38,941 nucleotides of DNA from Treponema sp. (GTDB taxonomy: Bacteria > Spirochaetota > Spirochaetia > Treponematales > Breznakiellaceae): assembly GCA_031254315.1 (NCBI GenBank), contig JAIRUQ010000107.1:1-38941 (forward strand), given 5' to 3'. Within the stretch, counting starts at the first letter, position 1, and the number at the start of each line of letters is the position of its first letter. Under the pieces are notes generated by a model. It was given only the letters and a program-made list of their open reading frames with translations, was not told where the DNA came from and searched no databases. The translations under genes and the position numbers were made by a program. Below, in pieces: positions 14,921 through 38,941 of this stretch.

Positions 14921-14940
14921 TCTACTTCCTTCTAAAGCAG

Positions 14941-14970
14941 TTATTCAGAAACTGAAGTTTCCGAACAACT
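14941..14970. repeat. Dispersed palindrome A, copy 2, inside yidD 3' end
   Basis: On the minus strand the copy reads GTTGTTCGGAAAC, TTCA, GTTTCTGAATAA. It supplies the last ten or so codons of yidD, including the stop TAA. The palindrome therefore became part of the reading frame. Confidence 0.75.
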
Positions 14971-15204
14971 CTCTTTCATAAAATTTTTGTCCAATTCAGG
15001 AACAGGATCATAACCGCCCCTTCTCCATGGATGGCAACGGAGTATCCTTTTGACTGCCAGCAAACTGCCGCGCAGAAAACCGTATTTACTGACAGCTTCG
15101 TAGGCATAAGCCGAACAAGTCGGATAATACCTGCAAGCCGAAGGCAAATGAGGAGAAATCGCTTGTTGATAAAAACGAATAAATAAAAGCGCTATCTTCT
15201 TCAT
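14941..15204 (-). CDS. yidD: Membrane insertion efficiency factor YidD
   Basis: The product has 87 residues. Family motifs are plain: [38 protein letters not shown] and [15 protein letters not shown], with the conserved cysteines. YidD assists YidC at the inner membrane. The start codon overlaps the rnpA stop in ATGA, so the genes are coupled. The family normally ends soon after GGYDPVP; here a tail of about 17 residues follows, and its last part (SCSETSVSE) is encoded by a copy of dispersed palindrome A. Confidence 0.94.
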
Positions 15205-15605
15205 TTTAATAAACCGGCTTTTGTAAAAAGGAAGTTAAGCTGTTCGGCTCTGTCACAAAGAGATATTTTTTTGGGGTCGCCTTCGGTTTCAGGATAAACC
15301 AGTAAAATTAAATCATGCCCTCCCGAAAGACGGCACTTTAACAGCCTGAAAGCCTCTCGCCCAAGACGCCTTGCGCGGTTTCTGGAAACTGCGTTCCAAA
15401 AACTCATATCTCTTTTAGAAACCTTGGAAAAGGTAAAACAAATACGGTTATAAGGCAAATCGTTCTTTAATACAAAAAGTTTCGCGCCCCGGCAGTTATA
15501 TCGTTTACCCTTGCCAAATACTTCCTTGATCTCCTTCCTTCCCTTTAGATGCTCTTCCCGCCTAAAGCGAAAAGAGCCTTTTTCCCCAATCAAGCGGGCA
15601 TCCAA
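15201..15605 (-). CDS. rnpA: Ribonuclease P protein component
   Basis: The product has up to 134 residues and is the protein subunit of RNase P, which matures the 5' ends of tRNAs. The core is typical: [20 protein letters not shown], the aromatic pocket strand [12 protein letters not shown], and the RNR signature [18 protein letters not shown]. The longest frame begins with TTG at 15605, the very next base after the rpmH stop codon; no ATG stands in frame before the conserved domain, so a non-ATG start is needed, and a second TTG five codons later is possible. The adjacency suggests translational coupling to rpmH. Confidence 0.92.
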
Positions 15606-15761
15606 CTAATAAGGCTTCTTCTCGTTAGAAACTGAAAGCTTAATTCTGCCCTTTGCTCTGCGGCGTTTTAAAACAAGCCGCCCGCCCCTCGTTTTCATAC
15701 GGGCGCGAAACCCAAATTTGCGATTCCTCTTCACTTTACTGGGTTGATAAGTACGCTTCAT
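15606..15761 (-). CDS. rpmH: 50S ribosomal protein L34
   Basis: The product has 51 residues from the ATG at 15761, with GGAGAGGAT just before it. It begins [20 protein letters not shown] and continues [19 protein letters not shown], the L34 signature. The family usually has 44-46 residues; a short tail (SVSNEKKPY) follows here. L34 is a protein of the large ribosomal subunit. In most bacteria rpmH lies next to dnaA at the origin; here the upstream neighbour is instead the divergent aat-like gene. Confidence 0.96.
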
Positions 15762-15921
15762 GGTATCCTCTCCTATATATTTAATGGTTCTTGAAAACAA
15801 TTATAAAAAAACACAGTTTTTCTTAATTTTAGCCAAAAACTGTACAGCCCAAGCAAAACCTAACCGCATTTTGCAAGGGGTTAAATTTACTATAGAATAT
15901 TGAGAAAGATAGGTCAAGCGT
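15762..15921. promoter_or_regulatory. Divergent rpmH / aat-like promoter region
   Basis: For the plus strand TTGCAA (15871-15876), a 16-nt spacer and TAGAAT (15893-15898) give a credible promoter 23 nt before the ATG at 15922. For rpmH a TATAAT box is visible on the minus strand at about 15803-15798, without a good -35. An inverted repeat ACAGTTTTT/AAAAACTGT spans 15813-15843. No DnaA boxes were seen here. Confidence 0.5.
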
Positions 15922-16647
15922 ATGGACTTAAAATATACCCAATCCGGGTTCATTTATATCTCCCCTTCTGACGATTGTAAGGCGGTTGTCTCTGCAATGC
16001 TTGAGACGGATTATAACGAAGAATTCTGCCTTGCCGTGGATTTTAGCCCGGAATTCGTTGTCAGATTGATGGAAGCCGGGTTTTTGGTGATGTCTATGCA
16101 GTTTCCCGAAGATGAGGAGACCAAAAAGGAGGGCTTCTATATTTTGCTCCCAAAACTGCACCTCGTCCGTTCCGCTCTTTTTTACGAAAACCTACACATA
16201 AAAAGGTCTGTCCGCAGGCTGTTAAAAAAGTACGAATTGAGGGCGGACGCGGACTTTGACCTTGTTATTGACCGTTGTGTTGAAAAGCACGGTACTGAAT
16301 GGCTCACCCCTCCGCTGATAAAATCAATTAAAACGATTCGCGAATACGAAGGCACAGGTTCTCCCTTAAGCCCCACTTCAAACGCCTACCCTGCTTCATT
16401 TGCCCTTTACAGGGACGGCGTTCTTGTTGCCGGAGAATTTGGCGTGGTCTGCGGAAAAGTCTACACCAGCTATTCCGGTTTTTATGACGAGAATAACGCC
16501 GGTACGGTGCAGATCATTCAAACTGTCCGCTATTTACAGGAACACGGATTTTCTTTTCTTGATATGGGGATGCCGCTGGATTACAAAAACGACTTAGGCG
16601 CGGTAGATATAACCCCGCGCGAATTTGTCAGATTGTTCAGATCATGA
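15922..16647 (+). CDS. aat: Leucyl/phenylalanyl-tRNA-protein transferase-like protein
   Basis: The product has 241 residues. It aligns by eye with Aat, which transfers Leu or Phe from tRNA to the N-terminus of proteins for N-end-rule degradation. Shared blocks are ENLHIKRSVRRLLKKYE (Aat SLHISRSMKR), DRCVEKHGTEWLTPPLIKSI (WITRGVVEAY), GVVCGKVYTSYSGFY (GVAQGTLFCGESMFS) and the C-terminal LDMGMPLDYKNDLGAVDITP ([20 protein letters not shown]), including the catalytic-type aspartate. The N-terminal part is strongly diverged: the usual GGDLSP and YRxGIFPW motifs read AVDFSPEFVVRLMEAGFLVM. It may therefore be a spirochaete-type Aat with a changed amino-acid pocket. It ends 6 bp inside the convergent gene. 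Confidence 0.8.
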   Translation: MDLKYTQSGFIYISPSDDCKAVVSAMLETDYNEEFCLAVDFSPEFVVRLMEAGFLVMSMQFPEDEETKKEGFYILLPKLHLVRSALFYENLHIKRSVRRLLKKYELRADADFDLVIDRCVEKHGTEWLTPPLIKSIKTIREYEGTGSPLSPTSNAYPASFALYRDGVLVAGEFGVVCGKVYTSYSGFYDENNAGTVQIIQTVRYLQEHGFSFLDMGMPLDYKNDLGAVDITPREFVRLFRS

Positions 16648-16932
16648 GTTAGGCTTTTTAGTGGGACGTTTTACAAAGAGGGGATCGAAATATTTTTCTA
16701 TTTCGATTTTGTCTAAAAAATATCTTAACACAACGCGGTAAACCGCGATAGAAATAGCAATAGAAGACAAAAAGATAAGCGTGAAACCCCATTGATAACC
16801 TGTTGGCGGTATCAACGGCGTAATAAATTTTGTGAATAGAATTAATAATATAATAAAACTAATGACGGCGACAATAACATTAAAAAGAGTCGCTCCCAGA
16901 ATGAACAATACCGTATTTAACTTTTTATTCAT
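16642..16932 (-). CDS. Small inner-membrane protein behind lspA
   Basis: The product has 96 residues from the ATG at 16932, with GAGGA about 8 nt before it; a TTG at 16947 is a weaker choice. Two long hydrophobic helices (TVLFILGATLFNVIVAVISF with IILLILFTKFI, and GFTLIFLSSIAISIAVYRVV) separate a short basic N-terminus from a charged C-terminal tail (KIEIEKYFDPLFVKRPTKKP). The gene overlaps the end of lspA by 8 bp and so is in its operon, and it overlaps the aat-like gene tail to tail by 6 bp. Function unknown; the arrangement suggests a membrane role tied to LspA. Confidence 0.75.
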   Translation of the reverse strand: MNKKLNTVLFILGATLFNVIVAVISFIILLILFTKFITPLIPPTGYQWGFTLIFLSSIAISIAVYRVVLRYFLDKIEIEKYFDPLFVKRPTKKPNS

Positions 16933-17536
16933 TTGTTCGATCCTCAATTACTTTTTTCTCTTCCGTTATTTGCGGCTTTTCTGTCTTTTTTAGAGGAACA
17001 AACATGGTAATAAATAAAAGAATACAGCTTACAACAACAGATGAATCGGCGATGTTAAACGTGGGCCAGCGGGACATACCAAGAAGTCCGTACAAATTAA
17101 CACTTATAAAATCTACAACACCGTCTATCCTGAAAATACGGTCGATGATATTTCCAAGACCGCCGCCGATAATACCTGCCGCCGCCCATCGCTGTAATTT
17201 GGAAAATTCATTGGATTTAAAATAGTACCAGAGTAAAAAGCCCAAAACCAAAAGCGGAACAACTACAAAAATAAAAGGCTTTATAACTTCGGGGAGATTG
17301 TCTCCAAGGCTAAACGCTATCGCTTTGTTTCGCACATGATAAATCCATATAAAACCGTTGTTAAAAACATCTTTTATAAGCCCGTATTCCGGCTTTGCTT
17401 TTACAATAATCATTTTTACAATCTGATCCGCCAAAATAACAAACGCCGTTAACGACAATGGCAGAAATTTCCCTTTTAAACTTAAAAGTTTTTCCTTTAA
17501 ACTTAACATTTTTTCTTTTAAACTCTGATTCACCAT
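16925..17536 (-). CDS. lspA: Lipoprotein signal peptidase
   Basis: The product has 203 residues with four hydrophobic segments. LspA is the inner-membrane aspartic protease that removes signal peptides from lipidated prolipoproteins, of which this window encodes several. Catalytic aspartates are visible in GGLGNIIDRIFRIDGVVDFI and in PTFNIADSSVVVSC. The usual NxGaaFS motif reads HVRNKAIAFSLG. AAGGAG stands 4 nt before the ATG. The N-terminus carries a threefold SLKEKxL-type repeat before the first helix, and the C-terminus a charged tail of about 22 residues; with these it exceeds the usual 160-170 residues. Confidence 0.94.
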   Translation of the reverse strand: MVNQSLKEKMLSLKEKLLSLKGKFLPLSLTAFVILADQIVKMIIVKAKPEYGLIKDVFNNGFIWIYHVRNKAIAFSLGDNLPEVIKPFIFVVVPLLVLGFLLWYYFKSNEFSKLQRWAAAGIIGGGLGNIIDRIFRIDGVVDFISVNLYGLLGMSRWPTFNIADSSVVVSCILLFITMFVPLKKTEKPQITEEKKVIEDRTNE

Positions 17537-17544
17537 TTAACTCC

Positions 17545-18318
17545 TTACAACCCTGTGGGAATATCTAAAAATTCAACGTCAATCCCTGTCTCCGCCGCGC
17601 AATGGCGCATAACAGCCTGAAGTCCCCAGACTTCGGTACTGTAATGTCCGCCCGCAACCATATTAATCTTCGCTTCAAGACAATCATGATAAACCTGATG
17701 AGAAGACTCACCTGTTACAAACATATCCACTCTCTCATCAATCGCTTCCCTTACGCTCTCAGGTGAGCCGCCCGATACAACCGCCGCAGTGGAACTTTCC
17801 TTTTTCCCAAACGGAAAAACACCTAAAGGCGGTCTTCCCATAAAGCTGATTTTTTTTACCGCTTCATCAACTGTAACGGGTTTTGGGAATGTCCCTTTAT
17901 AACCGATTTTACCTCCGTGGTAAGACCCAAACGGTTCAATATTTTCCAGCCCCAAAAGACCGGCAAGGCAGGCGTTGTTCCCAAGTTTGGGATGCTTATC
18001 AAGCGGCAGATGAACCGCATACAGACAGATGTTATGATCGAGCAGAAACTTGAGCCGCCCTCTAAGGTTCCCGCAGACCCGTAATGGCTCGCCCCAAAAT
18101 AGTCCGTGGTGAACAAAAAGCATACCCGCTCCAACGGCGGCTGTCTGTTCAAAGGTCTCCATTGCCGCATCCACACCAAAGGCAATTTTCCGAACCGCAG
18201 TCCCGTCATTATCCACCTGAATTCCATTCAAAGACCTGTCAATAGAAGCAAACCCTTCTATCTCCAAAAACTCTTTGAAAAAAGTGTCCAATTGGGTTGT
18301 TGTCAAATCCGCACTCAC
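17545..18318 (-). CDS. Nif3/YbgI-family dinuclear metal protein
   Basis: The product has 257 residues if the GTG at 18318 is the start, the position where family members begin (SADLTTTQLDTFFKEFLEIE). The frame is open upstream into a terminator, which cannot be coding. Metal-ligand motifs are FVHHGLFWG, AVHLPLDKHPKLGNNACLAG, VTGESSHQVYHD and VAGGHYSTE near the C-terminus. The family forms hexamers with a two-metal site and is annotated as a GTP cyclohydrolase I type 2 homologue, but its reaction is not settled. It stops 8 bp before lspA and is probably in the same transcript. TACACT 6 nt before the GTG may be the -10 box of a leaderless mRNA. Confidence 0.9.
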   Translation of the reverse strand: MSADLTTTQLDTFFKEFLEIEGFASIDRSLNGIQVDNDGTAVRKIAFGVDAAMETFEQTAAVGAGMLFVHHGLFWGEPLRVCGNLRGRLKFLLDHNICLYAVHLPLDKHPKLGNNACLAGLLGLENIEPFGSYHGGKIGYKGTFPKPVTVDEAVKKISFMGRPPLGVFPFGKKESSTAAVVSGGSPESVREAIDERVDMFVTGESSHQVYHDCLEAKINMVAGGHYSTEVWGLQAVMRHCAAETGIDVEFLDIPTGL

Positions 18319-18384
18319 CTGAAAAGTGTAGCATGGAGAGAAAATATATTCCAGTACCGGAAAATTATCAAATTTTATAGAATA

Positions 18385-18436
18385 CGGGAGAGAAAACAAC
18401 AAAGCCGCATACGTCTATAAGAACGTGTGCGGCTCT
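18385..18436 (-). terminator. Rho-independent terminator after the 18460 gene
   Basis: On the minus strand AGCCGCACACG (18434-18424) pairs with CGTATGCGGCT (18413-18403) with one G-T pair, followed by TTGTTGTTTTCTCTC. The hairpin plus U-rich tract follows the end of the membrane-protein gene by about 25 bp. Confidence 0.8.
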
Positions 18437-18459
18437 GTGAATAGATACTGCTCTATATC

Positions 18460-18852
18460 TTAGCCAAATTTCCTGCTTGCAATCATGAGAGAAGCGAGAA
18501 CCATTAAATGTACCGCCAGTCTCTGTAATGAAAGTAAGCTGAAGCCTTCTTTAAGCCAAACAATAATTTCAATTACAACGTAAACAATCCAGATAATCGC
18601 AATGATTAATATCAGGGTGCTAAGGAAAGAAACCTGAACATCAAACATTTCCAGCAGAATCGCTATACCAGCTATTAACGCAATAACACCGGCAATCACT
18701 GTAAAAGTACCTATAGCGTCGCCTCTAAACATCCTACTGAAAATAATCATGAAATCTCCAGCCGCCGCTTTCTGCACTCCTAAAATACCATTAGCGATAA
18801 GATACAAAGCTACAGAAAGTTTCCAAAGGAAAATACCTATTCCTGCTTTCAT
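18460..18852 (-). CDS. Small multi-spanning membrane protein
   Basis: The product has 130 residues from the ATG at 18852, with GAGG 5 nt before it. Four hydrophobic segments are visible: LWKLSVALYLIANGILGV, TFTVIAGVIALIAGIAILLE, STLILIIAIIWIVYVVIEII, and LQRLAVHLMVLASLMIAS. No family motif is recognised. It is a single-gene unit: its own terminator follows, and the upstream region carries two palindromes (18918-18936 and 18950-18963) that may be operator sites, so expression could be switched. Function unknown. Confidence 0.75.
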   Translation of the reverse strand: MKAGIGIFLWKLSVALYLIANGILGVQKAAAGDFMIIFSRMFRGDAIGTFTVIAGVIALIAGIAILLEMFDVQVSFLSTLILIIAIIWIVYVVIEIIVWLKEGFSLLSLQRLAVHLMVLASLMIASRKFG

Positions 18853-29741: not shown

Positions 29742-30239
29742 ATGAAAACGGCAGGGAACATTCTTTCAACTCTCTTTGATGAGGGATTTGTAAAAAAAGC
29801 TCAAGGGTACTCAAAACTTTTTGATTCTTGGGTGGATATTACCACAAAAAACGGAATTGCCGCCGCCGCAGATCACTCCCGAATAAAAGACTTGGACAGG
29901 GGCATTTTGTTAGTTGAAATGGATCACCCCGGCTGGAAACAAATACTCCAGACAAAACAGGCAAAACTGCTCAATGATTTTCGCTACCGCTTCCCGGATA
30001 TGGACATAAGCGGAATATCCCTCATGCTTGGGCGAAGCGAGCCGCAGGAGGAAACAATCTCCGGCAAGGAGCAAAATGAAGAAACAGCGAAGAGGGAAAC
30101 CATGACCGAAGACCCGCCTCAAGCTGATTTTGTTGGAGAGCCTATTGCCGGCTATGACGCTATTAAGGACGAAGAGTTTAAAGAAATGCTAAAAAAATTA
30201 GGGCAGTCCATTGCCGTAAAAGAAAAGAGGAACCTCTAA
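29742..30239 (+). CDS. DciA-like (DUF721) protein, probable replicative helicase loader
   Basis: The product has 165 residues. The central part ILLVEMDHPGWKQILQTKQA with LLNDFRYRFPDMDISGISLM is the DUF721 pattern. DciA proteins load the replicative helicase in many bacteria that lack DnaC/DnaI. The gene usually stands near dnaA-dnaN-recF and gyrB; gyrA follows here 3.3 kb on. The N-terminus (AGNILSTLFDEGFVKKAQGY) fits too; the Glu/Lys-rich C-terminal part (100-165) is variable. TATGAT stands 6 nt before the ATG and no ribosome binding site is seen. The final codons and stop are supplied by palindrome B copy 2. Confidence 0.75.
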   Translation: MKTAGNILSTLFDEGFVKKAQGYSKLFDSWVDITTKNGIAAAADHSRIKDLDRGILLVEMDHPGWKQILQTKQAKLLNDFRYRFPDMDISGISLMLGRSEPQEETISGKEQNEETAKRETMTEDPPQADFVGEPIAGYDAIKDEEFKEMLKKLGQSIAVKEKRNL

Positions 30240-30266
30240 AAACTGAAATTTTTAGAAGTTCCCAAA
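30226..30266. repeat. Dispersed palindrome B, copy 2, over the dciA-like 3' end
   Basis: Arms GGAACCTCTAAAAA and TTTTTAGAAGTTCC with a short loop. It starts within the last codons (Arg-Asn-Leu-stop) of the DciA-like gene. It is the reverse-orientation relative of 29158-29196. Confidence 0.7.
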
Positions 30267-30401
30267 AACGAAAAATCTGTAATTAAAAGCCAACCTTTAG
30301 AAATTTTGTCAAAAATAAAAAAAGGGAATTTTCTTGCCGCAAAGTAAAAAAGTTCTTAGCTTATATAGATAAGACTTTTCTCAAAATCTGGAGGTGGTAT
30401 C

Positions 30402-30479
30402 ATGAAAGGTGTTTTATCATTAGCAATTCTTGCTTTACTTTCAATAATTCTTCTTGCAGTAGTTTTTTATGCTGTCTGA
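30402..30479 (+). CDS. Hydrophobic microprotein, 25 residues
   Basis: A GGAGGTGG ribosome binding site stands 6 nt before ATG AAA GGT. The peptide begins MKGVLSLAILALLS and is hydrophobic to its end (AVVFYAV). It is homologous to the 31-residue peptide at 33233-33328, which begins MKGILLLAIFTLVS. After the TGA the same frame goes on SKKTKK, resembling the basic end of the longer paralogue, so the TGA may be a recent truncation. A single membrane helix is likely. Function unknown; toxin of type I systems, small membrane regulator, or signal-peptide-like relic are all possible. Confidence 0.65.
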   Translation: MKGVLSLAILALLSIILLAVVFYAV

Positions 30480-30513
30480 AGCAAAAAGACAAAAAAATGT
30501 GTCCCTCAAAAAG

Positions 30514-30545
30514 AGTTGTTTGGAAACCTCAGTTTCCGAACAACT
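30514..30545. repeat. Dispersed palindrome A, copy 3
   Basis: Reads AGTTGTTTGGAAAC, CTCA, GTTTCCGAACAACT. It follows the first microprotein gene by 35 bp. Confidence 0.8.
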
Positions 30546-30792
30546 TTATTAAAAACGCATGAGAGTCCCCTCTTTTTACTCGTAAAAAGTAAACGCTTTT
30601 ATATAATCATTTTACTAAATTTAAGGCTATTTTAATCTTGTAGTAAAATCATTAAAAAAACAGTTGTTTTTTCTTGTCTCTTTAGAAGAAAATTCTTAAT
30701 TTATATATAGAAACTAGATATTGTATTATTTTGCGTTATATTTGAATCAGCGATGTTTTAATGGCAGATACTAAGATTTAAAGGAGAACATT

Positions 30793-31662
30793 ATGCGTTT
30801 TAATTTCTATCGACTAACAATCCTATTGTTATGTGTTTTTACAATCGTTGTTTTTTCCGGTTGTATAATTACATTTGGTGAGCGCCCGTCTTCTGCCATG
30901 GAAGTCAAAGACCATTCTTTCCCCATTACAGGAGAGGTTCGTGAGGTAAATAATGTTGTCAGTATAATTGAGCGTACGCTACCGTGGAAAGGAAGAACGG
31001 CTTTGCCGCGAGCAGGCATTTCTCTTACAGGAGTTGTAGGACAACCTTTTTTCAGTTTTAGAACAACTATAACTCCACGAATAATTAGACTAAAGTATCA
31101 GGAAGATGACACCATTTGGCTTATGCCGGGAACAAAACAGCCGTACTTTTGGAGGGGGGATATTATAATTGAGGGTTCTTCGGTAGAAACAACCATTGAA
31201 TTTGATGTCCTTGCTACGGAGAATGGTGAGGATAAGAACTTTATATTAACTAAGGCGTCTTTAGGACAGGCAAGGCTGGAATTTGATGATCCTTTAGAAG
31301 TCCTTACCGGAATAACCATGCCTCCCTATCCTTTCCTTATTGGATATGTTCATATATCAAATAGTAAATACAGGGTATATGCGGTTATTGACAATCCTCC
31401 TAGGTACAGAATGAGTCTGCCTGAGATTTTCTTTAGTCCTAAGCAGAAATTCCAGTTTCTTGACGGGCAGGGCGCTGTTATAGCTGAACTGGAAGCAGAA
31501 AGAGGACAATACACCATATATGATAATCTTCCGGCGGCTGAAACTGGAGGTCTAAAAAACGCCATTGCTCTTCTGGTTGGCTTTAGACATGCCACATCAA
31601 TATTGAAAAATATAGAAAATTCATGGGATCCTCCCATGTTTTATAATTATGCTTTTCCGTAA
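30793..31662 (+). CDS. Lipoprotein of unknown function, first gene of omptin operon
   Basis: The product has 289 residues; AAGGAGAA precedes the ATG. The signal ends in a lipobox (LLCVFTIVVFSGC, Cys at about 24). The mature chain appears all-beta (VVGQPFFSFRTTITPRIIRL, TIEFDVLATENGEDKNFILT, YVHISNSKYRVYAVIDNPPR). No family is recognised. It is followed after 14 bp by the omptin-like gene and then by a small barrel protein, with the last two overlapping, so the three form an envelope operon. AT-rich base use sets this operon off from dciA and gyrA on either side, which suggests insertion. Confidence 0.8.
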   Translation: MRFNFYRLTILLLCVFTIVVFSGCIITFGERPSSAMEVKDHSFPITGEVREVNNVVSIIERTLPWKGRTALPRAGISLTGVVGQPFFSFRTTITPRIIRLKYQEDDTIWLMPGTKQPYFWRGDIIIEGSSVETTIEFDVLATENGEDKNFILTKASLGQARLEFDDPLEVLTGITMPPYPFLIGYVHISNSKYRVYAVIDNPPRYRMSLPEIFFSPKQKFQFLDGQGAVIAELEAERGQYTIYDNLPAAETGGLKNAIALLVGFRHATSILKNIENSWDPPMFYNYAFP

Positions 31663-31676
31663 GAAGGATATGAATT

Positions 31677-32636
31677 ATGTATAAATTTTTAACCTTTTTA
31701 TTATTATTTTTATTTCTATGCGGTATACAAGCCCAATCTTATTGTTTAGAAGTTGATTTTTCTTTTGACATTGGCTTAAAAGGCGGAACGACACAGGAAT
31801 CTGTATACGAAGATGAAACCTGTATAAGCCGGTCAGATTGGATGGATAAAGCTGTTCCATTTACTAATTTTTCAGGAATGTTCAGAACAAATAATTTTCT
31901 ATTTAAATTGAATCTGACATTAGCCGCTCCTCTCATAAGCGGAGAAATGGAAGATTATGATTTTTTAATTCCTGATAACGAAAATCCATCCCGTTACGCA
32001 TGGCATACTGCTTACCTTGACAAGGATTTTTCTTGCGGCGCAGAAATAGGATATGAGTTCCTTTTTAACTATTGGTATATAACACCAAAAATTGGTTTCC
32101 AGTACCGTAGCCTCAAGTGGACAGCTTCAGACGGCTATTTGCAATATCCGGCAACAGGACAATGGACAGGTGACGAACAGAAAGTATATGTCATTGGTTC
32201 TGTTGCCAGCTATGAGCAGGCTATTTGGTTTCCTTATGCGGCTGTAGAAGCGGGTATTCATTACACATTTCCGTATGAAGGCAAATTGCAAATAGCTGTT
32301 GGCGTGGGAGTATACCCGTATATGTGGGCGGAGACGAATGATACACATTTTTTGCGCAATCTGCAATTTAATAACTCTCTTAGCGGAGGATTAGGCTTGA
32401 ATTACGAATTAACTGTGAGCTTTTTTCCTGAACATACAAACGGGATTGGGTTCATTATTCGTTACAAAAACGAAAACATTCTCAACATGAAGGGGAGTGC
32501 AACCTCAAATGAGACGGGTATATCATCGGGTTCTTTACTCATAACTGAAGGTTATGGTAGCAGAATAGAAACAATGCAAAGCTCTTATACAATGGGGATA
32601 ATAATTCCGGTTTATAATATAGGAGATAAATCATGA
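31677..32636 (+). CDS. Omptin-family outer-membrane protease-like protein
   Basis: The product has 319 residues with a signal peptide (KFLTFLLLFLFLCGIQAQ). It follows the ten-stranded omptin barrel (OmpT, Pla): RSDWMDKAVPFTNFSG near the start, then GEMEDYDF with Asp 93 and Asp 95, WYITPKIGFQYRSLKW, YEQAIWFPYAAVEAGIHYTF, and AETNDTHF with Asp 222 and His 224. OmpT has its catalytic residues at Asp 83, Asp 85, Asp 210 and His 212, so spacing and order agree. Omptins cut between basic residues on the cell surface and are best known from Gammaproteobacteria. The C-terminal end lacks the usual terminal aromatic residue, ending in NIGDKS. Substrate unknown. Confidence 0.8.
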   Translation: MYKFLTFLLLFLFLCGIQAQSYCLEVDFSFDIGLKGGTTQESVYEDETCISRSDWMDKAVPFTNFSGMFRTNNFLFKLNLTLAAPLISGEMEDYDFLIPDNENPSRYAWHTAYLDKDFSCGAEIGYEFLFNYWYITPKIGFQYRSLKWTASDGYLQYPATGQWTGDEQKVYVIGSVASYEQAIWFPYAAVEAGIHYTFPYEGKLQIAVGVGVYPYMWAETNDTHFLRNLQFNNSLSGGLGLNYELTVSFFPEHTNGIGFIIRYKNENILNMKGSATSNETGISSGSLLITEGYGSRIETMQSSYTMGIIIPVYNIGDKS

Positions 32637-33193
32637 AAAAATTAATTGTTGTTTTTTTACTTTTTTTATTTTGTTTTCCTGTGATAAATTCGTATGCGGA
32701 AGATGTAAATTTTGGCTTTAGCCTCGGAACTATATGGACTTATTATGATATATCAGCGGATAAATTCAATGTAGATGCTGATCTATTTCATTTTAACTGG
32801 TTATTACACGATAAATTCATTATAGGTGTTAATTTGGCGAGAGCTATTGGCTCTCCTGATAATCATAACACACAAGTTATTCTTCTTCCTGTGGAACTGG
32901 GATTTATTCCGTTAAGTTATAATTTAAACGCTAACCATCAGCTTTGTCTTTCAATCAATGGGAAGATGGGCTGGCATTTTGCATACAGAAATGAAGACCT
33001 AATTAGTAATCAATTTTATGGTTCGATAGGCACTCAATTATTTTTACAATTCAGAGAACCCGGCTCCCAAATACCATATTCCCGATATTTGTCGTTATTT
33101 GTTGAATATAATACCTTACAGGAATTTAAAGTGGGTATTGGGGTGGATTTATCTCTTATCCTTTTGGGTATATTTCTATGGGGAGCATTGTAA
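32633..33193 (+). CDS. Small outer-membrane barrel-like protein
   Basis: The product has 186 residues. The ATG overlaps the omptin-like stop by 4 nt. A signal peptide (KKLIVVFLLFLFCFPVINSY) is followed by amphipathic beta segments (FGFSLGTIWTYYDISADKFN, LCLSINGKMGWHFAYRNEDL, RYLSLFVEYNTLQEFKVGIG). The end (LSLILLGIFLWGAL) is more hydrophobic than a barrel strand. Family not recognised. Its coupling to the omptin-like gene suggests they act together. Confidence 0.75.
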   Translation: MKKLIVVFLLFLFCFPVINSYAEDVNFGFSLGTIWTYYDISADKFNVDADLFHFNWLLHDKFIIGVNLARAIGSPDNHNTQVILLPVELGFIPLSYNLNANHQLCLSINGKMGWHFAYRNEDLISNQFYGSIGTQLFLQFREPGSQIPYSRYLSLFVEYNTLQEFKVGIGVDLSLILLGIFLWGAL

Positions 33194-33232
33194 CCTTTTA
33201 GAAATTATTATGTTAAAAATATAGAGGTATTT

Positions 33233-33328
33233 ATGAAAGGCATTTTATTGTTAGCTATTTTTACTTTGGTTTCAACAATTCTTTTTGCGGTAGTGGATCA
33301 GGCTTTTAGCAGTATGAAGAAACGGTAA
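33233..33328 (+). CDS. Hydrophobic microprotein, 31 residues
   Basis: AGAGG stands about 6 nt before the ATG. The peptide starts MKGILLLAIFTLVSTILFAV and ends DQAFSSMKKR, i.e. one membrane helix plus a short basic tail. It is the paralogue of 30402-30479 and is likewise followed by palindrome A (33341-33371) within 15 bp. The two units flank the omptin operon. Conservation of the start, the helix and the ribosome binding site argues that it is translated. Confidence 0.65.
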   Translation: MKGILLLAIFTLVSTILFAVVDQAFSSMKKR

Positions 33329-33340
33329 TCCGCTAAATAG

Positions 33341-33371
33341 AGTTGTTCGGTAACTTCATTTTCTGAACAAA
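33341..33371. repeat. Dispersed palindrome A, copy 4
   Basis: Reads AGTTGTTCGGTAAC, TTCA, TTTTCTGAACAA. It follows the second microprotein gene by 12 bp and could act as terminator-like hairpin before the gyrA promoter. Confidence 0.75.
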
Positions 33372-33416
33372 TTCCTTTTTTAGGCTCATAATCAAGCCCT
33401 CCCCTCCCCATACCTT

Positions 33417-33445
33417 TTGACTAAATCCTTCTAAAATAGTAAAAT
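33417..33445 (+). promoter_or_regulatory. gyrA promoter
   Basis: TTGACT (33417-33422), a 17-nt spacer and TAAAAT (33440-33445), about 45 bp before the gyrA start codon. Confidence 0.75.
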
Positions 33446-33490
33446 AAGGCAGTAAAATTTTGATTTTCTCAATAATAAAGGATAAAAAAA

Positions 33491-35941
33491 GTGGCTGATA
33501 CGACCGGTGAATTGCCTTTGGGCAAAGTTATTCCCATAGCAATAGAAGACGAAGTAAAAACCGATTATCTCAATTACGCAATGTCTGTCATTGTCAGCCG
33601 CGCCCTGCCCGATGTCCGGGACGGACTTAAGCCCGTACACAGACGGCTTCTCTATGCGATGGACACACTTGGATTGCGACCGGGCGGAGGCACAAAAAAG
33701 TGCGCCCTCATCGTTGGTGAGACAATGGGTAAGTATCACCCGCACGGCGACCTGTCGCTTTATGACGCTCTTGTGCGCATGGCGCAGGACTTTTCCCTTC
33801 GCTATCCGTTGATAAAAGGGCAGGGAAACTTCGGCTCCATAGATGACGATCCCCCGGCGGCAATGCGCTACACCGAAGCGAAAATATCCAAAATTGGCGA
33901 TGAAATGCTTCTAGACCTCCAGAAGGAGACCGTGAACTTTGTCCCCAACTATGACGAATCTTTTGATGAGCCGGAAGTTTTGCCCTCGGCAATTCCCAAC
34001 TTGCTGATTAACGGCTCCAGCGGAATTGCGGTCGGTATGGCGACAAATATGGCTCCCCATAACCTCGGCGAAATTTGCGACGCAATCTGTTTCCTAATCG
34101 ACAATCCCGACGCGAATAACGAAGACCTTATGCGTCTTGTGCAGGGACCCGACTTCCCCACAGGCGGCGTAATTTTTGGCAGGCACGGTATTCGAGACGC
34201 TTACAAAACGGGGCGTGGCAAACTCCTCGTTCGCGGCAAATTCAATGTTGAGACCACAAAACAGGGCAAGGAAAAAATCGTCTTTACAGAAATTCCTTAC
34301 AATGTGAACAAAGCCCTTCTTCTTGAAAAAATCGGGCAGTTGATGCGTGATAAAGTAATTGACGGCATAGCGAACGCAAACGACGAATCAGATCGTGACG
34401 GCATCCGCATCGTAATTGAACTGAAAAAAGGCGCTATTTTAAAAGTCATTTTAAATCAGCTTTTCTCGAATACTCAGCTTCAAACAACCTTCGGAATCAT
34501 CAATTTGGCTCTCGTTGGGGGCAAGCCGCAGTTACTCACTATGAGAGAATTGGTTCACTATTTTGTGGAACACCGCATTGAGGTCGTAACCCGCCGAACA
34601 CGGTACGACTTGCGCAAAGCCGAAGAACGCGCCCACATACTGGAAGGGCTAATCATCGCCCTCGCTAATATTGATGAAGTTATCGCCGTGATCAAAGCAA
34701 GCAGAGATGTTGCCTCAGCACGGCTCAAATTGCAGGAGCGTTTCAAACTTTCAGAAGCGCAGTCCGAAGCAATTGTCGAAATGCGTTTAGGTCGCCTGAC
34801 CAGCCTAGAAGTCGAAAAAATTCAACAGGAACTTGACGAACTGAAAGCCCGCATCGCTTACTATAAATCTCTGCTTGCCGATGAAAAAAAATTGCGTGGA
34901 GTAATCAAGGACGAAACGAAAGAAATTGCCGAAAAGTACAGCGAGCCGAGGCGCACGGAAATAGTCGCAGGAGAAGTTGAAAACATCAATATAGAAGACT
35001 TAATTAAAAAAGAAGAGATGATGATCATTATTTCTAATCTTGGGTATGTTAAACGGATACCTGTATCCGCATATAGAAATCAAGGAAGAGGAGGCAAGGG
35101 TATGCAGAGTGCAAAACTTGCGGAAGACGATTATGTAAGACAGATTTTTGTCGCATCAACACATGAGTATGTCATGTTCATCACGAGTGCGGGAAAAGCG
35201 TACTGGATGAAAGTCCACGAACTGCCGGAGGGCAGTCGGACAAGCAAAGGCTCTCACATTAAGAGCCTGCTTACGGTTTCGCCGAACGAAGACATTACAG
35301 CGATTGTTTCGCTTAAAGACTTCAGCGACAGCGAATATCTTTTTATGGGAACTGCTTGCGGCGTTGTAAAAAAGGTCAAAACAAGCGAGTTTGCCAACGC
35401 TAAAACGAGAGGCATTGTAGCGATAAACCTCGACGAAGGCGACAAACTGGTCAGTGCGCTTTTAACAAAGGGCAACGACGAAGTTGTGCTGATTTCTCGC
35501 AGAGGACAGGCTCTCCGCACCCACGAGGATCATGTCCGCGCGATGGGACGTTCTTCACGGGGCGTAACCGGAATGAAGTTGTCAAACGGCGATGAATTGT
35601 CAGGAATGTTGAGGGTAGTTTCCGAAGAAAAGATGCTGATTATCTCCGAGTTCGGTTACGGCAAGCGTGTCGATTTCAGCGAATTTTCATCGCACGGGCG
35701 AGGAACCGGCGGCCAGAAGATTTACTCTGTGGCTGAAAAAACCGGAGAACTCGTTGGCTGTGTCAGCGTTCTGGACAATGAGGACATCATGTGTATCACC
35801 AGTCAGGGCAAATCGATCAAGCTGAAAGTGAGCGAAATTCGTGTCATGGGACGCTCCGCTCAGGGCGTGCGCCTGCTCAGTATCGACAAACCTGACTTTG
35901 TAATCGGACTGGACAGAATTGTCAAAGAAGACGAAGCATAA
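33491..35941 (+). CDS. gyrA: DNA gyrase subunit A
   Basis: The product has 816 residues from the GTG at 33491, with AAGGA 8 nt before it. GyrA cuts and rejoins DNA in the A2B2 gyrase that introduces negative supercoils. The winged-helix region has the catalytic tyrosine (about 127) in AAMRYTEAKIS. The C-terminal beta-pinwheel carries the GyrA box as QGRGGKG (about 539-545), which marks it as GyrA and not ParC. In the quinolone-resistance region HPHGDLSLYDALVR, the position of E. coli Ser 83 is Leu 88, while Asp 87 is kept as Asp 92. The gene is alone on its transcript; gyrB is not in the window. Confidence 0.96.
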   Translation: MADTTGELPLGKVIPIAIEDEVKTDYLNYAMSVIVSRALPDVRDGLKPVHRRLLYAMDTLGLRPGGGTKKCALIVGETMGKYHPHGDLSLYDALVRMAQDFSLRYPLIKGQGNFGSIDDDPPAAMRYTEAKISKIGDEMLLDLQKETVNFVPNYDESFDEPEVLPSAIPNLLINGSSGIAVGMATNMAPHNLGEICDAICFLIDNPDANNEDLMRLVQGPDFPTGGVIFGRHGIRDAYKTGRGKLLVRGKFNVETTKQGKEKIVFTEIPYNVNKALLLEKIGQLMRDKVIDGIANANDESDRDGIRIVIELKKGAILKVILNQLFSNTQLQTTFGIINLALVGGKPQLLTMRELVHYFVEHRIEVVTRRTRYDLRKAEERAHILEGLIIALANIDEVIAVIKASRDVASARLKLQERFKLSEAQSEAIVEMRLGRLTSLEVEKIQQELDELKARIAYYKSLLADEKKLRGVIKDETKEIAEKYSEPRRTEIVAGEVENINIEDLIKKEEMMIIISNLGYVKRIPVSAYRNQGRGGKGMQSAKLAEDDYVRQIFVASTHEYVMFITSAGKAYWMKVHELPEGSRTSKGSHIKSLLTVSPNEDITAIVSLKDFSDSEYLFMGTACGVVKKVKTSEFANAKTRGIVAINLDEGDKLVSALLTKGNDEVVLISRRGQALRTHEDHVRAMGRSSRGVTGMKLSNGDELSGMLRVVSEEKMLIISEFGYGKRVDFSEFSSHGRGTGGQKIYSVAEKTGELVGCVSVLDNEDIMCITSQGKSIKLKVSEIRVMGRSAQGVRLLSIDKPDFVIGLDRIVKEDEA

Positions 35942-35989
35942 AGCTGAAACTTCTAGCGGGCAACGTTGTTTAATCATCAGGAGAAAAAT

Positions 35990-36511
35990 ATGAAGAAATT
36001 TTTAGTTTTATCGATATTCGCTCTTCTAATGAGTTGGACAACCATAAATAGCCACGCTCTTGCGATTGCGGAGCGTGACAGAAGCGTGACGGATTTTTAC
36101 GAAATTACCGGAAAAGAGTGGAAATTAATCGAGGTTTATATTGATAGGGAAAAAACTCAATTTAACCGTGATGATTTTTTAAATGAGACCTATGTTGAAG
36201 GGCAAACTTTTATACTTCACCGCTTTTCGCCGGAGACATTCACCCTGACATTTGACGAGCAGAGGCTCAGCGGAACAGGAGCGCCAAACCGCTACTCTGC
36301 CCCGTATACTTTGGGCGATAAGCAGACAATCAGCATTATGCCCATGCTCTCAACTATGATGGCTCCTCTTTTTGAACTGGAAAGTCTTAGAGAATACGAC
36401 TTCTATGTTTATTTGACAGGTGTCCAAAAATGGGACTTGGTAAACGGCAACTTTGAGCTTTACTCAAAGACCGAAGACGGGCGCGAAATACGGCTGGTAT
36501 TTGGGCTATGA
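35990..36511 (+). CDS. META-domain secreted protein 1
   Basis: The product has 173 residues from the ATG at 35990, with CAGGAGA before it. A signal-like N-terminus (KKFLVLSIFALLMSWTTINS) lacks the lipobox cysteine that its paralogue has (MSW in place of MSC). The META/HslJ-type domain follows: ITGKEWKLIEVYIDR, FTLTFDEQRLSGTGAPNRYS, APYTLGDKQTISIMPMLSTM and LVNGNFELYSKTEDGREIRL. The gene overlaps the next META gene by 4 bp (ATGA). It lies 48 bp after gyrA. META domains are found in stress-related envelope lipoproteins; the function is unknown. Confidence 0.88.
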   Translation: MKKFLVLSIFALLMSWTTINSHALAIAERDRSVTDFYEITGKEWKLIEVYIDREKTQFNRDDFLNETYVEGQTFILHRFSPETFTLTFDEQRLSGTGAPNRYSAPYTLGDKQTISIMPMLSTMMAPLFELESLREYDFYVYLTGVQKWDLVNGNFELYSKTEDGREIRLVFGL

Positions 36512-36978
36512 AAATGAAGAGACTTTTAGTTTTTTTGACCGCCGTTTTAATGATGAGTTGCGCCACTACTTCTGCCGACCGCAGGAGCGTGGCGGACTTT
36601 TCCGATATTATCGGGAAACAGTGGAAATTGGTTGAAGTCTACGTTGGCGGAAGAAACACCCAATTTAGCCGCGATTCTTTACGAACTGATTTTGCAAGGG
36701 AGATGTTCACCCTGACCTTTGACGGGCAGACTCTCAGCGGAACAGCCGCACCCAACCTCTTCTCTGCCCCGTACACCTTAGGCGACAACCAAGCTATCAG
36801 CATAATGCCCATGCGCTCAACCTTAATGGCGTCTTTTTTTCAACCCGAAAACATAACTGAACCCGACTTTTTTGCCTATATGCAAAATGCCCAAAAATGG
36901 GGCTTGGCAGACGGCAACCTTGAACTCTACTCAAAAACCGAAAACGGTCGTGAAGTGCGGCTAGTTTTTGGGCTATAA
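36508..36978 (+). CDS. META-domain lipoprotein 2
   Basis: The product has 156 residues, with a lipobox (VFLTAVLMMSC, Cys at about 18). The META domain reads IIGKQWKLVEVYVGG, FTLTFDGQTLSGTAAPNLFS, APYTLGDNQAISIMPMRSTL and LADGNLELYSKTENGREVRL. It is a tandem duplicate of the gene upstream, and a third copy begins beyond the right edge of the window on the minus strand. One nucleotide after its TAA stands a perfect parS palindrome, and the last 16 bp of the gene belong to the long inverted repeat. Confidence 0.9.
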   Translation: MKMKRLLVFLTAVLMMSCATTSADRRSVADFSDIIGKQWKLVEVYVGGRNTQFSRDSLRTDFAREMFTLTFDGQTLSGTAAPNLFSAPYTLGDNQAISIMPMRSTLMASFFQPENITEPDFFAYMQNAQKWGLADGNLELYSKTENGREVRLVFGL

Positions 36979-37217
36979 TTGTTTCACGTGAAACACGGCA
37001 AAGAAAGCGCCCGTAGGGCGTCCCCCCGAATAAGTCAAAACGCCGTAGCCTCAAGAAATTAAAACCCTTGAAAAAGGCGGGCTTGCTTTAGCAAGACCAG
37101 CAGGCGGCAAAGTCTGCGCCCGTAGGGCGTCCCCCCAAATAAGTCAAAACGCCGTAGCCTCAAGAAAGTTAATACCCCCGAAAAAGGCGGGCTTGCTTTA
37201 GCAAGACCAGCAGGCGG
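36963..37217. repeat. Long inverted repeat, left arm
   Basis: This arm begins in the last codons of META gene 2 and ends in AGCAGGCGG at 37217. Its complement runs from 38941 back to 38685 with few differences, and continues outside the window. The arm holds a parS site and two tandem units of 109 bp (36996-37104 and 37105-37213). The units contain small hairpins such as CGCCC/GGGCG and CTTGC/GCAAG. Confidence 0.9.
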
Positions 37218-37304
37218 CATTTTTTTCCAAAAGAACCCACACAAAGGCACGAAGACACAAAGAGAGCAAAAGAAGAGAAAAGCGCCGTAGCATCCACAAT
37301 ACCC
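36979..37304. other. Gene-free stretch made of repeats
   Basis: The stretch is filled by the left inverted-repeat arm and by a fragment of a further unit at about 37280-37310 (AGCGCCGTAGCATCC.CAATACCCC). Short open frames in the repeats are by-products of the sequence and not taken as genes. Confidence 0.7.
36980..36995. promoter_or_regulatory. parS centromere site 1
   Basis: TGTTTCACGTGAAACA, a perfect 16-bp palindrome identical to the widely conserved ParB binding site. It is 1 nt downstream of the META gene 2 stop. parS sites cluster near the chromosomal origin in most bacteria. No parA or parB gene is in the window. Confidence 0.9.
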
Positions 37305-38057
37305 CTACGGAAAGTCAAGAAGCATTTGAGTGTGTATACTCAGATATATACTATTAATTCCATTTGTGTTTTTATATCCAGCCTCAAAAGTGAAATTTGG
37401 CGTAAAAAAACGCCATTCCGGGTCATTGTTTAAAATATTTAATGAAAAATAACGTATTCCTATTTTGAAGTTGTAATTATAAAACATCGTAATAAATGGT
37501 TCTGATAAATTCCAATTTAAATAATCAAATGAAAAACAAGGACCCAAAATTGAATGATTGATAAATCTTTTGTTGCTATCTATTAGACTAAATATATTCC
37601 AATAAATATTTAATCCAAAAAAACTGATTACATGATTGTGAAAATTATAATAATACTTAGGTATTATAAATCTAGTATCAAAGCCAAGTCCTGTTTTAGA
37701 ATTCTCAAAATAGTAATTTATTAAACCTATGCTAAATTCATGATTTAATTGAACCCCTTCAGATATATCAAATTCATATTTTATAGGAAGTACATCTACT
37801 CCTCCAACATTGAAAATACGCCCTAAAGCTTGTCTAAGAAATAATGGACCAAAAAGTAAATCAGTTAAAGGATCAGGATAATCGTCATTCATTAAACCTA
37901 TGCTAAATTCATGATTTAATTGAACCCCTTCAGATATATCAAATTCATATCTTAATGGGAGTACTTCTAGTCCAAAATCATCGAAAATGGGCAAGTCTTG
38001 CCCAAATAGCGTATTTGTACAAAGAATTAAAAATATCGCTAAAAACAACTTTTTCAT
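37305..38057 (-). CDS. Secreted beta-rich protein with internal duplication
   Basis: The product has 250 residues with a signal peptide (KKLFLAIFLILCTNTLFGQ). The segment VLPLRYEFDISEGVQLNHEF occurs a second time as VLPIKYEFDISEGVQLNHEF. At the DNA level 37720-37779 and 37891-37950 are identical over 60 bp, offset 171 bp (57 codons, in frame). The C-terminal half has aromatic-rich beta segments (YYYNFHNHVISFFGLNIYWN, TMFYNYNFKIGIRYFSLNIL). Possibly an outer-membrane or periplasmic protein; no family recognised. It follows the hemerythrin gene by 15 bp, sharing its promoter. The DNA is AT-rich. Confidence 0.75.
   Translation of the reverse strand: MKKLFLAIFLILCTNTLFGQDLPIFDDFGLEVLPLRYEFDISEGVQLNHEFSIGLMNDDYPDPLTDLLFGPLFLRQALGRIFNVGGVDVLPIKYEFDISEGVQLNHEFSIGLINYYFENSKTGLGFDTRFIIPKYYYNFHNHVISFFGLNIYWNIFSLIDSNKRFINHSILGPCFSFDYLNWNLSEPFITMFYNYNFKIGIRYFSLNILNNDPEWRFFTPNFTFEAGYKNTNGINSIYLSIHTQMLLDFP
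37720..37950. repeat. 60-bp perfect direct repeat within a gene
   Basis: 37720-37779 and 37891-37950 are identical. Both copies lie in the same reading frame, so recombination between them would delete or add 57 residues without a frameshift. Confidence 0.9.
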
Positions 38058-38069
38058 AAAAACCCGATT
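38042..38069 (-). other. Hemerythrin / secreted-protein gene junction
   Basis: Only 15 bp separate the hemerythrin stop (38073) from the ATG at 38057. CGGG stands 5 nt before that ATG. No terminator or promoter is seen, so the two genes form an operon. Confidence 0.6.
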
Positions 38070-38072
38070 GTT

Positions 38073-38522
38073 TTAGCGTTTCGTTTTTGCAGAGGGGCGT
38101 GCTTCATTTATCTTATTCCCTTCAATAAAGTGTTTTTTTGCGGCTACATCATGTTTTTTTATGTGCTTCATAACCCGTTCTTTTACAAATGCCGTTACAT
38201 AGAATAAGTTCAATTCGATTTTTTTCTTTTCAATATCTTCAGTCATTTTTGTTATTTCATCCAATATTTTCTTATGGTCTGCTTTATGTTTTTCGGTATT
38301 TTCATAGTCTGTCTTACATAATATTTTTTCTTCCAGATCAAAATGACTTTTCAGAAATTTAATCGAGTAGTCTATATTTTCATAATAAAATTTATCTTCG
38401 TCCTTTTTTTTACCGGTACAATGTTTTATTGCATTATTTAATCGTTTCGCTAGTTCTTTATGCTGATTATCTATTTCCGGGACGCCTAATAAATATTCAT
38501 AACCTATTTCAATGAAATCCAT
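38073..38522 (-). CDS. Bacteriohemerythrin
   Basis: The product has 149 residues from the ATG at 38522, chosen because AGGGA stands 5 nt before it and the family domain begins there (DFIEIGYEYLLGVPEIDNQH). The diiron ligands appear in order: EIDNQHKEL, SHFDLEEKIL, KHKADHKKIL, and MKHIKKHDVAAKKHF. Hemerythrins bind oxygen reversibly and in bacteria serve in O2 or redox sensing, storage or delivery. The tail NKINEARPSAKTKR is basic. In an anaerobe an oxygen-scavenging role is plausible. The gene lies in the AT-rich cassette between the inverted-repeat arms. Confidence 0.92.
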   Translation of the reverse strand: MDFIEIGYEYLLGVPEIDNQHKELAKRLNNAIKHCTGKKKDEDKFYYENIDYSIKFLKSHFDLEEKILCKTDYENTEKHKADHKKILDEITKMTEDIEKKKIELNLFYVTAFVKERVMKHIKKHDVAAKKHFIEGNKINEARPSAKTKR

Positions 38523-38541
38523 TTTTTCCCTGTAAACATAG

Positions 38542-38569
38542 TTTATAACATGAAAAACCTTCCGATCAA
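38542..38569 (-). promoter_or_regulatory. Hemerythrin promoter
   Basis: On the minus strand TTGATC (38569-38564), a 16-nt spacer and TATAAA (38547-38542), 19 nt before the ATG at 38522. It supports the short start rather than the frame's upstream extension to 38627. Confidence 0.6.
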
Positions 38570-38908
38570 GTGTTTTTTCTATAATAATATTCATAAATTT
38601 TGTGGCAATATATGACAACTGTCTCACTTGAGAGCAACAAGCCTTCTGCTTCCGAAGCGTCCTGTCCCTATAAAAATTCCCTTCCCGCCTGCTGGGCTTG
38701 CTAAAGCAAGCCCGCCTTTTTCGGGGGTATTAATTTTCATGAGGCTACGGCGTTTTGATTTATTTGGGGAAACGCCCTTACGGGCGCAGGCTTTGCCGCC
38801 TGCCGCTCTTGCTAAAGCAAGAGCGCCTTTTTCGGGGGTAATGATTTTTATGAGGCTACGGCGTTTTGACTTATTCGGGGGGACGCCCTACGGGCGCTTT
38901 CTTTGCCG

Positions 38909-38924
38909 TGTTTCACGTGAAACA
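38909..38924. promoter_or_regulatory. parS centromere site 2
   Basis: TGTTTCACGTGAAACA, identical to site 1 and 1929 bp from it. It is again 1 nt from the stop codon of a META-type gene, here on the minus strand. Confidence 0.9.
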
Positions 38925-38925
38925 A

Positions 38926-38941
38926 TTATAGCCCAAAAACT
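38926..38941 (-). CDS. 3' end of a third META-domain gene (partial)
   Basis: The last 16 bases read on the minus strand as Val-Phe-Gly-Leu-stop, identical to the end of META gene 2. Because the inverted repeat continues beyond the window, a third META-domain lipoprotein gene facing left is very likely. Only the last codons can be seen. Confidence 0.6.

Follow-up and report, generated by a model that had tools for sequence, protein, structure and literature searches.

One or multiple parS sites near the replication origin are common, their numbers ranging from one to 20–23, according to a passage of PMC7333895, and in the spirochaete Borrelia burgdorferi an excerpt of PMC9712426 places an oriC-proximal parS inside a broad ParB ChIP-seq peak. 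The locus considered here lies in a Treponema contig of 38,941 nt (JAIRUQ010000107.1, contig C111 of the assembly), the whole of which is referred to as the window. Scanning of the window identified the 16-mer TGTTTCACGTGAAACA at 36980–36995 and at 38909–38924, both with 0 mismatches. It was judged against TGTTNCACGTGAAACA, the consensus of chromosomal ParABS/parS systems, and the match to this palindromic ParB site is exact in both copies. The earlier note on this DNA had reported two perfect parS sites in an inverted repeat, and had proposed a centromere duplicated by that repeat together with a gene family. The two sites and, as letters, the inverted repeat are real, the latter comprising 91 exact nt inside larger inverted arrays of ~110-nt units; the proposed duplication fares worse, as described below.

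An exact 16-mer is expected by base composition ~0.001 times per 3.1-Mb genome, and at up to three mismatches shuffled controls yielded 0.29 matches on average, with 4 out of 100 shuffles reaching two. In the entire genome (3,104,717 bases in 127 contigs) only two sites are found at up to two mismatches, both of them on C111 and 1.93 kb apart. As the same pattern read backwards gives four matches at this threshold in the same genome, the weight lies on the exactness of both matches. The parS copies are thus few and clustered, and the even scatter over the genome named in the earlier note as contrary evidence is not observed; nor is parB lacking, the other such circumstance it had named.

The first site (36980–36995, a palindrome assigned to neither strand) is predicted to be a genuine, ordinary chromosomal ParB site, common at the same place in relatives, that is, 3' of gyrA and often after META-domain genes. 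The profile search yielded one ParB_N match above the cut-off in the genome, encoded on contig C9 (PF02195, 107 bits; TIGR00180, 179.5 bits against a cut-off of 58.45), and this parB gene directly follows a gene for a ParA-like ATPase; none of the 22 NCBIfam models listed for this ATPase reaches its cut-off. The presence of both genes agrees with the identification of the 16-mer as a ParB site. By analogy with the known family, ParB would nucleate on parS at 36980–36995 and then spread, ParA would move the ParB–parS complex, and SMC would load at the same site.

The neighborhood of the first site is that of an origin region, with gyrA (33491–35941, forward strand; PF00521, 541 bits, and PF03989) and dciA, both identified by Pfam, adjoining it. 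The other neighbors named by the earlier note also look right, rnpA and yidC, as well as yidD, being recognized from their translations, and rpmH from a short frame. An omptin-family outer-membrane protease-like gene is located upstream of gyrA, at 31677–32636 (PF01278, 67.8 bits). Downstream of gyrA, two META-domain genes on the forward strand, at 35966–36511 (PF03724, 33.6 bits) and 36508–36978 (PF03724, 41.2 bits), constitute a direct tandem duplication, with direct repeats of 278 nt (77%) and 108 nt (71%). They account for both META matches in the genome at E ≤ 0.001, and this direct pair, lying wholly upstream of the first parS, speaks against a gene family duplicated by an inverted repeat. 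The gene dnaA is found on contig C83 (TIGR00362), ~20 kb from parS if the proposed adjacency of C111 and C83 holds; in two single-contig relatives (G065 and G066), taken as circular, parS lies ~7–8 and 16 kb from dnaA. Along C111 and C83, GC skew calculated every 3 kb is weak and of mixed sign, with no clear switch at parS.

For comparison we used 80 gyrA loci of relatives, and 116 relative genomes for the copy number. The closest named GyrA matches are from Treponema metagenome-assembled genomes (91% identity), which probably originate from termite guts, judging by isolate names and the listing of PMC7024585. Exact parS sites are present in 25 of the 80 loci, and in all 25 every site is 3' of gyrA, at a distance of 78–5453 nt, in line with the origin-proximal position suggested in the earlier note. 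The note had also asked whether other copies follow META genes: this is the case in relatives, a META gene preceding parS by at most 2 kb in 18 of the 25 loci, while the source genome has no third copy. The arfB gene is seen in 15 of these loci and unseen in ten; in ten loci parS is within 150 nt of it, in twelve it lies right of parS in reversed orientation, the arrangement that C83 would give, and in three it is found between META and parS (L095, L102, L107). The full order dnaA–dnaN–recF–dciA–gyrA–META–parS–arfB, with arfB reversed, is present in six loci (L090, L091, L097, L098, L100, L167). Out of the 55 loci with no exact parS, 26 end at most 3 kb past gyrA, 16 reach 3–9 kb, and 13 reach at least 10 kb; sites with one or two mismatches occur in six of the 55 (L094, L101, L115, L122, L127, L128).

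Exact copies number zero in 40 relatives, some of which are incomplete bins, one in 46, two in 26, three in one, and four in three, that is, one or two in 72 of the 116 genomes and two or more in 30. As 40 relatives have no exact site, an exact parS is common here and not universal. For 18 pairs of exact sites, drawn from 14 loci that comprise ten of the 30 relatives with at least two sites and four named loci, the spacing is 41–2050 nt. With 20 shuffles of one flank as a control, the only clear case of shared flanks is a direct repeat in G011 (L065, 9924–10980), where two of three exact parS sites form a perfect 41-nt direct tandem repeat and the third shares an adjoining near-palindrome. This near-palindrome, GGTGCCTGGCACC, has 14 matches in G011, one in G021, and none in the source genome (G000) and G008. 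The direct tandem in G011 suggests that in this genus parS can be multiplied together with a neighboring repeat, by direct duplication. In one further pair (L158, 13205 and 13617) the flanks on one side score 21 against a shuffle maximum of 13; the score of 47 in L125 stems from a 23-nt inverted repeat that lies between the two parS sites and is clear of both; and a few other pairs exceed the control by 1–3 points. An inverted parS–META copy, or inverted flanks adjoining the sites, was observed in none of the 18 pairs. In two relatives, G033 and G069, multiple parS sites are on separate contigs; those of G033 form two parS–arfB loci (L063 and L064, on its contigs C31 and C44), perhaps reflecting a mixed bin.

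In the window, the sequence past the first parS is of a different kind. Repeat searches and alignment reveal an array of two ~110-nt units directly after the site (36996–37214, forward strand), and an inverted array at 38688–38908, ~90% similar and ~1.5 kb away, whose part at 38688–38881 (reverse strand) probably continues into nt 1–414 of C83. Between them lies a 1.47-kb cassette (37220–38687) with 30% GC, compared to 42% for the window, containing two genes on the reverse strand. The gene at 37305–38057 has an internal 109-nt direct repeat (87% similar) and no Pfam or NCBIfam match at E ≤ 0.001, hence its family is unassigned; the gene at 38073–38627 is hemerythrin-like (PF01814, 29.4 bits; TIGR02481, 63 bits). 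Homologs of the cassette genes are absent among the matches listed for the relatives' loci at E ≤ 1e-8. The gap between parS and what would be arfB is filled by two inverted ~110-nt arrays around a low-GC, hemerythrin-like cassette.

The array unit has nine matches in the source genome, and the GC-rich array of ~110-nt units occupies 36996–37214, 38688–38908 and C83 nt 1–414, where it overlaps the 3' end of arfB, in addition to a 53-nt piece at 77% identity on C35. A two-unit query matched in eight of 38 same-genus relatives, mostly as pieces of 26–38 nt, the longest matches covering 138 nt at 69% (G030) and 83 nt at 78% (G003); in a few genomes the scoring extended to 20 candidates. These short or weak matches speak against a widespread repeat family, and, as far as sequence comparison goes, the search shows high-identity ~110-nt arrays in this genome only, among 39 same-genus genomes including itself. 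A repeat unit that itself carries parS was rejected: no other parS is found in the genome, yet C83 has at least four further units and C111 another two. Within 36900–38941 the gathering score is reached by no Rfam family, and the predicted fold of the array is not clearly better than that of shuffled sequences (z = –1.45; 15 of 200 shuffles as good).

The second parS (38909–38924, likewise assigned to neither strand) is exact, and doubtful as a site because of where it stands. It falls within the last 33 nt of the contig, which ends at 38941, so that the supposed second META gene amounts to 17 nt. The placement of both copies 1 nt past a META stop codon, as stated in the earlier note, therefore holds for the first copy, which follows the gene ending at 36978, and is unproven for the second. 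The segment 38851–38941 is the exact reverse complement of 36963–37053 (91 nt) and has a mosaic structure. The window is identical to nt 1–55 of C83 from 38827 to 38881, and from 38882 it switches to the reverse complement of 36963–37022. By exact-match comparison and alignment, the switch point is a 31-nt block (38851–38881, on neither strand in particular) common to the C83-type array and the parS-side unit, and the tail 38882–38941 (reverse strand) is probably a chimeric extension. Private k-mers of the tail, i.e., those absent from both C111 1–38881 and C83, number 0 out of 114 at k = 21, 27, 29, and 31, one at k = 33 and 60 at k = 119. As all short tail k-mers are found elsewhere, the tail has no sequence of its own and represents a switch between two known stretches. 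Neither a third META match nor another copy of the META 3' end was found in the genome.

Contig C83 is most likely the continuation of C111, since arfB often follows parS in relatives; the adjacency is deduced from gene order and continuity of the array. C83 starts with 3.7 copies of the ~110-nt array in the same orientation as the right-hand array of the window, followed by arfB (NF006718) and, further on, recF and dnaN (named from translations) and dnaA. We considered the 55-nt identity between C111 and C83 as a graph overlap at k = 55 and dropped this idea, shared contig ends being mostly 117–119 nt; the identity carries little weight in any case, as array units have stretches of similar length in common (alignment by eye). 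On C83, dnaA–dnaN–recF is reversed (14265–18509, considered together with 29742–36978 of the window; loci L016 and L250), and in many same-genus relatives dnaA–dnaN–recF is upstream of dciA–gyrA and co-oriented with it. Provided that C83 is the continuation of C111, the reversed order could be accounted for by a single inversion that has a breakpoint between recF and dciA.

How the tail arose can be judged in part from the assembly itself. Out of 83 contig ends examined (of 254), nine have 117–119 nt in common with another end, and in one further pair the shared stretch is 46 nt, which suggests a final k of ~119. As the 91-nt repeat is shorter than this, either the tail is backed by reads spanning the junction, or the contig comes from a smaller k. 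A mosaic tail would be produced by an assembly step at small k, by a chimeric read, by variation between strains or by recombination in vivo, and since recent recombination in vivo produces the same mosaic, the lack of private k-mers cannot alone distinguish an artefact from a rearrangement. Assembly-type origins are the simplest, as the array must also reach C83. A search for literature on assembler joins at inverted repeats found no paper.

We consider it likely that the locus has one true parS, at 36980–36995, and that the second is a false assembly join through the repeat. Under this reading, an assembly path in the right-hand array would cross the 31-nt block common to the left-hand array and would then run into the first parS and the META gene end on their reverse strand, the false path stemming from rare reads or from a previous step at smaller k. 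The position in the last 33 nt, a tail consisting wholly of sequence found elsewhere and the probable continuation of the array into C83 and arfB all argue against a duplicated centromere. A special case counted within this reading, and in itself improbable, is a strain mixture, where another strain has a C83-type unit directly after parS and the graph joined the parS side with the complement of the other array; it would fit the contamination estimate of 5.85% and the appearance of array units as shuffled variants of each other, but no second-strain contig with the parS locus is seen in the bin.

Less favored, and in our opinion unlikely, is a real junction from a subpopulation where the 1.47-kb cassette is flipped by recombination between the forward and the reverse array. 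Such a flip would put META–parS beside the hemerythrin end, parS remaining single and only its neighbor changing. The tail has exactly the expected recombinant order (META/parS, the 5' half of unit 1, the reverse array, the hemerythrin side), and the inverted orientation, similarity and spacing of the arrays suit this exchange. However, none of the nine array-unit matches shows the reciprocal junction, in which the left end of the cassette would be joined to the array on the arfB side, although short contigs may be missing from the bin; neither cassette gene has a recombinase match in Pfam or NCBIfam; and the switch block is only 31 nt. Quite unlikely, too, is the broader proposal of an invertible centromere-side locus, where the cassette between the arrays abutting parS flips and can also copy parS to its far side; if true, ParB loading and the neighbors of the centromere would vary among cells. 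Should reads support the tail, cassette inversion, rather than centromere duplication, would be its natural reading. That the META 3' end and parS are truly duplicated, in inverted form, past the right-hand array, with two functional ParB sites 1.93 kb apart, is very unlikely: the contig letters read that way, closely spaced multiple parS sites are common in relatives, and a final k of ~119 would resolve the 91-nt repeat, but the genome holds no further META match or 3' end, the reverse array would be needed again after the duplicate to reach C83 and arfB, and none of the relatives' pairs has inverted adjoining flanks, the clear case of G011 being direct.

The first parS adds a well-placed site to this group of Treponema, and the recurrent gyrA–META–parS–arfB neighborhood can serve as a guide to the origin region in draft assemblies. 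The second copy, in turn, warns against taking a perfect motif for a duplicated centromere when it stands in a repeat at the end of a contig; if nevertheless true, it would be a natural case of parS moved by repeat recombination.

Compared to chromosomal ParABS systems, the first site shares the exact palindrome, the location in the origin region and the presence of parB and a ParA-like gene in the genome, and no difference was found for it; the par genes are here on C9, a contig other than that of parS. Borrelia burgdorferi is likewise a spirochaete with parS near oriC, and differs in that its parA and parB are close to parS and ParZ controls ParA (PMC9712426). Within the genus, the locus resembles contig C88 of G011, which has several exact parS sites within ~1 kb between META and arfB; in G011 two copies form a direct 41-nt tandem inside the contig, whereas in the window the additional copy is inverted and located at the contig end.
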